A stretch of DNA of 38,395 nt from Nitrosopumilales archaeon. Its GTDB lineage: Archaea; Thermoproteota; Nitrososphaeria; Nitrososphaerales; Nitrosopumilaceae. The first letter of the stretch is position 1, and the number at the start of each line of letters is the position of its first letter. Below are positions 6,143-38,395 of the stretch, one piece after another. Location of the stretch: positions 1 to 38,395 of the forward strand of contig JADNRU010000008.1 in assembly GCA_016276965.1 (NCBI GenBank), given 5' to 3'. The notes beneath the pieces are model-generated. The model was not told the DNA's origin. It saw nothing but the letters and a program-made list of their open reading frames with translations, and did not search any database. Both the position numbers and the translations under genes were made by a program.

Positions 6143-6292
6143 CTAACCACCAGTTGCAGCATCAAATAACGCGCATTCACATTTGTCACGCTCTCCACAA
6201 TAAGGACAAACACAAACACATTTTTCAAGAGGATTTGCACAATCTACACAAATGGCAAATTCCTCAGTGTTATTTAGATCGTCTGAACCCAT
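6143..6292 (-). CDS. Cysteine-rich microprotein (49 aa) upstream of the oxidoreductase operon
   Basis: Direct translation gives a 49-residue protein, MGSDDLNNTEEF followed by eight cysteines in 26 residues: CVDC, then KCVCVCPYC, then KCEC. The spacing suits two zinc sites or an iron-sulfur site; sequence alone does not decide. The ATG at 6292 lies about 26 nt from the centre of TTTATAAG, supporting a leaderless mRNA. Its stop is 44 nt before the oxidoreductase alpha gene, so the products are probably co-expressed. It may be a small metal-binding accessory or simply a co-transcribed zinc protein. I do not recognise a named family. Confidence 0.75.
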   Translation of the reverse strand: MGSDDLNNTEEFAICVDCANPLEKCVCVCPYCGERDKCECALFDAATGG

Positions 6293-25703: not shown

Positions 25704-25877
25704 GTGAACCTAAAAACTACATTTAGAAATTGTGCAAATACAATAAAGCTTGCAAAAAAGCCAGACAGGGATGAGTATACGCAACATCTTAGATTGGTGT
25801 TATTGGGTGTTGCTTCAATCGGAACTATAGGTTTTATTATTCAATTTGTATTTTCTGTAGCCACATTTGGACAGTAG
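25704..25877 (+). CDS. secE: Protein translocase subunit SecE (Sec61-gamma)
   Basis: The 57-aa protein was found by translating the gap before spt5. It begins at GTG (MNLKTTFRNC) and has an amphipathic segment (about 10-27, ANTIKLAKKPDRDEY) followed by one transmembrane helix (about 31-53, LVLLGVASIGTIGFIIQF). This is the archaeal SecE layout that clamps SecY. The adjacent spt5 gene is the expected archaeal neighbour, and the TAG stop abuts its ATG at 25878. Confidence 0.9.
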   Translation: MNLKTTFRNCANTIKLAKKPDRDEYTQHLRLVLLGVASIGTIGFIIQFVFSVATFGQ

Positions 25878-26492
25878 ATGAGATTGGCAGAGGAAAGATC
25901 AGACGTGGAACAACAACCAGAGGAACAAACTCCAGAGCAGCAACCAGCGGAACAAACTCCAGAGCAGCAACCAGCGGAACAAACTCCAGAGCAGCAACCA
26001 GCGGAACAAACTCCAGAGAAATCAAAGGCTGAACCACAAAAAGAGGACTCCGAATCACATTTCTTTGCAATCAGAACCACGGGAGGACAAGAAAAGATAG
26101 TTTTGAGAGTTTTAGAAAATAGAGTTAAACAAGAAAATATCAACATACAATCTGTGTTATTAGTTGATAATCTGAAAGGATATGTCGTAATAGAAGCTCT
26201 TGGTGCAAGTGAAGCTTTTAATGCAATTCAAGGAGTAAGACATATTCGCGGACAGTTAAGAGGGGAACTAGATTTCAAAGATATTGAAGGTTATCTTGTC
26301 AAGGTATCTACTGTTACAGAACTTGCTGTTGATAAAATAGTTGAAATTATTGGAGGTCCATTCAAAGGCATGAAAGCCACTGTCACAAGGGTAGATTTTG
26401 ATAAAGAAGAGGCAACTGTGATTTTACTTGACGCACCATATCAGTTACCAGTAACTGTTGATGCAAATTATCTAAAACTCTCCACTGCGTAG
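25878..26492 (+). CDS. spt5: Transcription elongation factor Spt5 (NusG family) with repeat-extended N-terminus
   Basis: Spt5 binds the RNA polymerase clamp with Spt4 to raise processivity. The NGN domain starts about residue 58 (HFFAIRTTGGQEKIV) and the KOW domain is near the end with IIGGPFKGMKATV and VDFDKEEATV. Residues about 13-47 are four copies of a 9-residue Gln/Glu/Pro/Thr unit (PAEQTPEQQ or close), encoded by a 27-bp tandem repeat at 25914-26018. Archaeal Spt5 usually starts directly at the NGN domain, so this acidic tail is an addition. It follows secE without gap. Confidence 0.95.
   Translation: MRLAEERSDVEQQPEEQTPEQQPAEQTPEQQPAEQTPEQQPAEQTPEKSKAEPQKEDSESHFFAIRTTGGQEKIVLRVLENRVKQENINIQSVLLVDNLKGYVVIEALGASEAFNAIQGVRHIRGQLRGELDFKDIEGYLVKVSTVTELAVDKIVEIIGGPFKGMKATVTRVDFDKEEATVILLDAPYQLPVTVDANYLKLSTA
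25914..26018 (+). repeat. 27-bp tandem repeat within spt5
   Basis: Three full and one near-complete copy (25914-25940, 25941-25967, 25968-25994, 25995-26018). The unit starts CAACCAGCGGAACAAACTCC; copy 1 has A in place of C at position 8 of the unit. The other copies are identical over their aligned bases, indicating recent expansion. No spacers of unique sequence separate the units. Confidence 0.9.
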
Positions 26493-36766: not shown

Positions 36767-36794
36767 TCAAATCTCAAAATGATTTTGCGAAATT
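36767..36794 (+). repeat. 28-bp direct repeat, copy 1 (downstream of the PII gene)
   Basis: This copy differs at two of 28 positions from the copy at 37155-37182. It contains ATTTTGCGAAAT (36782-36793), a near-palindrome. It lies between the convergent 78-aa and PII genes. Confidence 0.75.
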
Positions 36795-37154: not shown

Positions 37155-37182
37155 TCAAATCTCAAAGTAATTTTGCGAAATT
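37155..37182 (-). repeat. 28-bp direct repeat, copy 2 (upstream of the PII promoter)
   Basis: The 28-bp copy matches 36767-36794 at 26 positions and holds the palindrome AATTTTGCGAAATT (37169-37182; arms AATTT/AAATT). It lies just upstream of the TATA box, where an activator or repressor would bind. A shorter form ATTTAGCGAAAT occurs at 37626-37637. Confidence 0.7.
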
Positions 37183-37236: not shown

Positions 37237-37545
37237 CTAATCCGAGGACTTTTCTTCTAAATAGGCTGCTACTTGTTTCTGGATTTGTTGTTTTTGATGA
37301 GTAATTTCTTGATGTATTCTATAAAGTAATTCTTGACCCAATCTTTGATTATTTTTATGATAATATGCTGTTGAATATTCTTGTTCCTTGCTTCCAAGTA
37401 ACCAACCAATAATAAAATCTGACTCGTTTTGTGGATTCCATGAAGATCTCAACATTGGATAATAAACTTCTAGAAAACCCTTCAAATCACTTTCAATTCC
37501 CTTAAGATCGTGTTTTACGAATTCAAAAAATTCTTCATCTTTCAT
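37237..37545 (-). CDS. Unknown protein, 102 aa
   Basis: This soluble, helix-rich protein begins MKDEEFFEFVKHDLKGIESD and ends in a Gln/Lys-rich helix (HQKQQIQKQVAAYLEEKSSD). No family is recognised. TATA-like TTTATGAGG near 37567-37575 (minus) fits the ATG at 37545. It follows the four Cys/His microproteins after a 119-nt gap. Confidence 0.6.
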   Translation of the reverse strand: MKDEEFFEFVKHDLKGIESDLKGFLEVYYPMLRSSWNPQNESDFIIGWLLGSKEQEYSTAYYHKNNQRLGQELLYRIHQEITHQKQQIQKQVAAYLEEKSSD

Positions 37546-37625: not shown

Positions 37626-37637
37626 ATTTAGCGAAAT
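37626..37637. promoter_or_regulatory. ATTTAGCGAAAT palindrome, third copy
   Basis: A near-palindrome matching ATTTTGCGAAAT at 36782 and 37170 except for one base. It lies between the 102-aa gene and the 42-aa Cys-rich gene, upstream of the former's promoter. Confidence 0.4.
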
Positions 37638-37664: not shown

Positions 37665-37793
37665 TTATGAAGAATTGATTGCATCCCAGCAACAGCACTC
37701 ATCCCATGTGCAGTTGGGACATTCTTTTTTAGATTTGCTGTTTTTGCATTCATCTGGAAGACATTCACAATCAGCACATTTGATTTGAAACAT
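37665..37793 (-). CDS. Cysteine-rich microprotein (42 aa)
   Basis: The 42-residue protein has nine cysteines: MFQIKCADCECLPDEC, then KECPNCTWDECCC. The ATG at 37793 is preferred to an ATG at 37853, which overlaps the preceding gene by 22 nt. The pattern CxDC ... ExC ... CPxC ... DxCxC resembles the microprotein at 6143-6292. It probably binds metal. No family name is claimed. Confidence 0.6.
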   Translation of the reverse strand: MFQIKCADCECLPDECKNSKSKKECPNCTWDECCCWDAINSS

Positions 37794-37831
37794 ATTCCAA
37801 GTCTCCACAGCCGCTAGACGTTTTATGAGCT

Positions 37832-38011
37832 TCAAGAAAATGTCCCCATGCAATTACAGCCTAAAGCCATACATGGTTTTCGTACCCCGTTTCTATCTCG
37901 TGGGAACTTTTCTTGTTGGTGTAGTTCTTTGTTATGTCCACAATCAGGGCAGTTATGTTCTTCGATGAAGGGTAATCCATAGCTGGTCTTTTTTATTTTA
38001 AAACTTCTCAT
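37832..38011 (-). CDS. Small zinc-ribbon-like protein (59 aa)
   Basis: The 59-aa protein starts MRSFKIKKTSYG and has CPDC (21-24) with a later Cys47 and GCNC (51-54), a probable four-cysteine zinc ribbon. The linker is basic, including KFPRDRNGVRK, as in nucleic-acid-binding ribbons. It starts 12 nt after the preceding 64-aa gene and is probably translated from one mRNA with it. Confidence 0.65.
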   Translation of the reverse strand: MRSFKIKKTSYGLPFIEEHNCPDCGHNKELHQQEKFPRDRNGVRKPCMALGCNCMGTFS

Positions 38012-38023
38012 TATGGTACATTC

Positions 38024-38218
38024 CTATGAATGATCATCACTTGTATTGTGTGCGTAAGCATGCCTAGTTTGCTTGTTAACTACTTTTATCCCTAGATCCT
38101 TGTATTTGGTGATACACCCATCACAGAGAAAGATATGAAGATTATCAAATACTATTACTGATTTCTTAGGTTTGTTATGATTACATTCTAATTCTTTGAG
38201 TAGTTCTGATTTTTTCAT
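38024..38218 (-). CDS. Small Cys/His protein (64 aa)
   Basis: The protein begins MKKSELLKELECNHNKPKKS and has LCDGCITKYKDLG around residue 31-43. The C-x-H and C-x2-C pairs could form one zinc site (CNH...CDGC). It is otherwise unrecognised. The ATG at 38218 lies 4 nt after the stop of the C2H2 gene, so the two are likely coupled. Confidence 0.6.
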   Translation of the reverse strand: MKKSELLKELECNHNKPKKSVIVFDNLHIFLCDGCITKYKDLGIKVVNKQTRHAYAHNTSDDHS

Positions 38219-38222
38219 TCTA

Positions 38223-38360
38223 TTAGTTATCCCAATACCATTTCTGTTTATAATGTTCTGGTTTTGATGTATGAGCTTTTTTGTAATGTCGTAACAATCT
38301 AATCTCTTCTGTAAAAGCCATTTTGCATTTTTTACATTTATGTGGTTTGAGTATTTTCAT
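38223..38360 (-). CDS. C2H2 zinc-finger protein (45 aa, or the end of a longer one)
   Basis: The translated frame holds HKCKKCKMAFTEEIRLLRHY followed by KKAH: C-x2-C-x12-H-x4-H, the classical TFIIIA-type finger, with a Phe and Leu at the hydrophobic-core positions. The ATG at 38360 gives 45 residues. The frame stays open to the window edge (about 11 more codons), so the gene could begin upstream of the window. It leads a run of Cys/His microproteins. A DNA- or RNA-binding role is inferred from the fold. Confidence 0.7.
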   Translation of the reverse strand: MKILKPHKCKKCKMAFTEEIRLLRHYKKAHTSKPEHYKQKWYWDN

Positions 38361-38395
38361 TTTCTTTTTCTCTTGGATAAAAGGCTCATAAGTCT

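Follow-up and report, generated by a model that had tools for sequence, protein, structure and literature searches.

The four small Cys/His open reading frames (ORFs) that close this contig are best explained, at a probability of roughly 55%, as a chromosomal cluster encoding predicted metal-binding microproteins of an ammonia-oxidizing archaeon. Two of the four, a nine-cysteine (nine-Cys) protein and a single-finger C2H2 protein, are well supported as genes because their protein sequences are conserved, dN being far lower than dS, and judged from sequence they apparently belong to conserved protein families of these archaea that are new to description. Our best reading is that members of the cluster have been recombined between neighborhoods and that the run does not represent a fixed machine of four parts but a local assortment near a conserved 102-aa gene.

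Anatomy and setting of the four-gene run

The window, i.e., the whole stretch of DNA analyzed, is a complete contig (C8) of 38,395 bp from a 1.17-Mb genome that is assembled in 83 contigs and 85% complete. Its genes include those for ribosomal proteins, LeuRS, AlaRS, NusG, and P-II; because of this gene content and of the named carriers of the nine-Cys family (Nitrosopumilales, Nitrosotalea, Nitrosotenuis, and archaeon MnTg01, among others), we place the host among ammonia-oxidizing archaea of the Nitrosopumilaceae type. The four ORFs lie on the minus strand and span 38360 to 37665, followed by the 102-aa gene:

38223..38360, minus strand: C2H2 protein (P4), 45 aa, predicted single C2H2 zinc finger and C-terminal KWYWDN tail
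38024..38218, minus strand: CNH/CDGC protein (P3), 64 aa, CxH...LCxxC, probable single CHCC metal site
37832..38011, minus strand: CPDC protein (P2), 59 aa, CPDCGH...CxxxxCxC, open frame only
37665..37793, minus strand: nine-Cys protein, 42 aa, CxxCxC-x4-C-x8-CxxC-x4-CCC, start at ATG 37793
37237..37545, minus strand: conserved 102-aa protein after the run, found in each of the four genomes searched in the genus

As the run sits at the contig end (38395), the sequence upstream of it is missing from the assembly. The initial annotation had described four minus-strand frames separated by gaps of 4, 12, and 38 nt, and the ORF anatomy bears this out. The 38-nt gap follows from placing the nine-Cys start at ATG 37793, where relatives begin or just after which they begin; a GGAG lies a few nucleotides upstream of this ATG. 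A 62-aa form beginning at a TTG was rejected, as it would start inside the CPDC gene and overlap it. The same annotation saw small Cys/His proteins in a probable operon; the anatomy supports this, strong conservation under purifying selection can now be added for two of the four, and metal binding stays a prediction.

Chance is a very poor explanation for the four-gene run. When the region was dinucleotide-shuffled 2,000 times and the window shuffled 100 times, no shuffle placed four small Cys/His ORFs in a row on the same strand (largest run, 2 in each case). Such a run is also absent from 773 kb of non-redundant related loci (largest run, 2), which are not a random sample because most were fetched as carriers of the nine-Cys, P4, or 102-aa gene. 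The relative closest in content is a locus from a second genus (L040), where one strand carries two pairs of small Cys/His ORFs in a stretch of about 1 kb; this locus combines P4 with a nine-Cys gene, the 102-aa gene, and other small Cys/His genes.

P4 matches the classical C-x2-C-x12-H-x3-5-H pattern (CKKCKMAFTEEIRLLRHYKKAH), and its residues 5 to 32 are similar to solved C2H2 proteins in the PDB, with E values down to 1e-23; the Pfam C2H2 models score it below their cutoffs. The finger is followed by KWYW[D/E]N, and the C, C, H, and H ligands and KWYW are invariant in the family alignment (A8). The copy in L040 is 93% identical (dN, 0.027; dS, 0.28). Single-finger proteins with the KWYW tail are found in many genomes of the host's family, each encoded by a lone small gene in varied contexts, and P4 probably binds nucleic acid.

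Other small ORFs in the window were noted as well. A 49-aa ORF with eight cysteines (CVDCANPLEKCVCVCPYCGERDKCEC; 6143-6292, minus strand), which may be another small metal protein, lies directly upstream of a 2-oxoacid:ferredoxin oxidoreductase-like gene. The NusG/Spt5-like protein (25878-26492, plus strand) has an N-terminal EQQPAEQTPEQQP repeat, and the Cys-rich ORF antisense to this repeat (25841-26146) is probably not a gene.

The nine-Cys family and its neighborhoods

Relatives of the nine-Cys protein were found in 48 of 151 genomes of the host's family, including a second copy in the same genome on contig C41, and in 26 of 398 genomes across the phylum, which belong to the home family and a few others. 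Eight cysteines are invariant and the ninth nearly so in an alignment of 27 members, giving the scaffold CxxCxC-x4-C-x8-CxxC-x4-CxC. Comparison of the window copy with six others yielded dN of 0.13 to 0.22 and dS from 1.0 to saturated, and the protein is therefore under purifying selection; LeuRS comparisons for L239, L235, and L236 were left out, as only fragments aligned. Searches against Pfam, NCBIfam, and PHROGs returned no match up to an E value of 1, so that no known metallothionein family model in Pfam or NCBIfam was matched, and there was no credible match in the PDB. As the AlphaFold2 model reached a pLDDT of only 60, we make no structural claim for this protein.

Nine-Cys genes are typically the 3' gene of their strand group: a simple ORF picker placed a same-strand gene within 100 nt on the upstream side of 31 of 54 copies, compared with 12 of 55 on the downstream side. 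In other loci the gene is often the last one behind Met-rich or DUF7482 envelope proteins, and in the second copy of the same genome (L035) the ATG overlaps the stop codon of a DUF7482 protein that is rich in Met. Counts of ORFs within 3 kb of nine-Cys genes were 8 for DUF7482 versus 0 in the larger control set (one-sided binomial P = 0.0004), 14 for Met-rich ORFs versus 6 in controls (P = 0.003), and 8 for a 160-aa membrane family versus 2 in controls (P = 0.008); these enrichments are suggestive only, because the tests treat related loci as independent and part of the query families were picked after the neighbors had been viewed. Met-rich extracytoplasmic proteins often bind copper, and as the sole pointer to copper here, the Met-rich neighbors are what directs attention to this metal. 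No metal genes lie near the nine-Cys copy within the window. P-type ATPase and YHS domains were not significantly enriched within 3 kb relative to controls, and that association was dropped. Adjacency to F510_1955 was likewise rejected, since a nine-Cys gene is present at just 4 of 30 such loci, all of them from one genus.

Further, the nine-Cys motif forms the N terminus of a membrane protein of 225 to 253 aa in four loci:

L061:6569-7246, L062:5886-6557, L063:5522-6283, L064:4264-4962: nine-Cys/membrane fusions

In these fusions, further cysteines and acidic residues are conserved, and a CC pair lies within the sequence. The L061 protein had no Pfam match above the cutoff, and the fused membrane protein, when used for a profile search of the PDB, had weak matches only (best, RNase kappa; E = 0.25). 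A possible, tentative reading is that the nine-Cys protein is a new metal-thiolate protein of Nitrososphaeria for copper (or zinc) handling, made both as a free protein and as the part of a membrane transporter that senses or delivers the metal.

Origin of the run and competing explanations

The initial annotation had likened the run to small zinc-finger genes of archaeal viruses and plasmids. Small C2H2-type proteins are indeed found in viruses of hyperthermophilic archaea, AFV1p06 being an example (PMC3541406), and the chromosomal location of the 102-aa gene varies within the genus, both of which would fit a remnant of an integrated virus or plasmid. However, the resemblance did not hold up in the searches: no relative of any of the four proteins was found in IMG/VR or in 50,697 phage records, and no relative of the nine-Cys protein, the one query used there, was found in 72,556 plasmid records. 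The families of the run occur instead in many cellular genomes, the neighbors on its known side are housekeeping genes, like the rest of the contig, and neither an integrase nor a viral hallmark gene is present on the contig as far as the assembly extends (38395). We thus regard a viral or plasmid remnant as very improbable, and the best reading, judged from these sequences, is that the run is cellular and chromosomal. Some doubt also attaches to the middle frames. P2, for which no convincing relative was found in the 151 family genomes or in viral contigs, is an apparent orphan and the weakest of the four as a gene, and P3 is absent from three genomes of the same genus, so that P2 and P3, or P2 alone, might not be genes, with only the nine-Cys and C2H2 proteins being made. 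Yet both frames carry paired Cys/His motifs and occupy the stretch from one conserved gene to the next with gaps of 4 to 38 nt, and P3 has relatives: a five-sequence profile retrieved proteins keeping the C, H, C, and C residues from about 10 genomes in two further genera (g18 and g20). We therefore consider it quite unlikely that these frames are noncoding.

It seems to us unlikely that the nine-Cys protein, instead of buffering metal, acts as a redox switch or in thiol stress, with disulfide formation releasing zinc. Genes for thioredoxin-like, DsbA-like, OsmC, and HxlR proteins are among the immediate neighbors of nine-Cys genes, and in L040 a thioredoxin gene lies two genes upstream. Nevertheless, an enrichment of redox genes is not established among the top 25 control families listed, and the thioredoxin query was found near nine-Cys genes once versus once in controls.

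For the chromosomal cluster that we favor, comparison with L040 bears on how its members are inherited. The nine-Cys copies of the window and L040 have saturated dS and are not close orthologues, whereas dS is only 0.28 for P4 and 0.38 for the 102-aa gene; the four genes therefore do not travel as one unit. In L040 the 102-aa gene is found linked to P4, and in a third genus (L232) a P3 relative is located within 3 kb of it. In another genome (G012), it adjoins the gene pair found at 0.5 to 1.9 kb of the window and is not near LeuRS, and its chromosomal place thus differs within the genus. In three relatives the 102-aa gene is flanked by zinc-ribbon microproteins (type DUF5679 or zf_Tbcl_2), and in three genomes of the genus a GIY-YIG gene is close to it and to zinc-ribbon microprotein genes:

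L227:3414-3719, L228:6692-6997, L229:8726-9031: GIY-YIG domain protein, 101 aa

A GIY-YIG nuclease was rejected as the mobility agent of this locus, as the window contains no GIY-YIG gene. The repeats at 36.8 to 37.6 kb, which had been taken to add to an accessory look, do exist, as a 26-nt intergenic sequence in two full copies (36769-36794 and 37157-37182, the only ones in the genome) flanking the P-II gene and a 13-nt partial match at 37626, but show no sign of a mobile element. A search of defense and RNA families gave nothing useful.

Proposed roles and relation to known microproteins

We propose that the four genes are probably carried on one transcript starting near or beyond the contig end. 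The nine-Cys protein would fold around one or two metal ions (Zn2+ or Cu+) through its thiolates and could serve as a cytoplasmic metal buffer or as a hand-off partner for metal or thiol proteins of the envelope, the C2H2 protein would be a small regulator binding nucleic acid, and the CNH and CPDC proteins may be single-site zinc proteins.

Zinc-finger microproteins of Haloferax volcanii are likewise archaeal, shorter than 70 aa, and equipped with paired Cys motifs; they are mostly uncharacterized, and their deletion mutants have condition-dependent phenotypes (PMC6562870, PMC11241148). Some of them bind zinc, some another metal, and some none (PMC11241148), which is the main reason to view metal binding by the four proteins described here with caution. 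Compared by description, the Haloferax proteins have two C(P)xCG motifs, whereas the four proteins here have other Cys/His arrangements: there is a single such motif, CPDCG in P2, and CDGC, CPNC, and CKKC elsewhere lack the following glycine. Like AFV1p06, P4 is small and consists of one C2H2-type finger extended at both termini (PMC3541406), but AFV1p06 is viral and lacks the fourth His, whereas P4 has all four ligands and the KWYWxN tail, and the relatives found for it are all cellular. Ammonia-oxidizing archaea rely heavily on copper enzymes, and a Csp with 18 cysteines that resembles MtCsp1 has been reported in Nitrososphaera viennensis (PMC7785015). The nine-Cys protein is similar to metallothioneins and Csp in being Cys-rich and possibly binding metal through thiolates, but unlike the N. 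viennensis Csp, it packs a fixed scaffold of eight to nine cysteines into about 40 residues, and neither Pfam nor NCBIfam has a model that it matches.

Single-domain metal-binding microproteins are thus already a known kind in archaea, of which the nine-Cys and C2H2 families appear to be new members. Our literature searches found nothing on the nine-Cys family, which does not prove it undescribed; standard annotation misses it because of its very small size and the lack of a family model. To our knowledge, how ammonia-oxidizing archaea buffer and route metals inside the cell is poorly known. The nine-Cys family, with its roughly 42 residues, fixed scaffold, ties to envelope proteins, and occurrence as a fused domain, offers a concrete and easily tested candidate for metal handling in these archaea.
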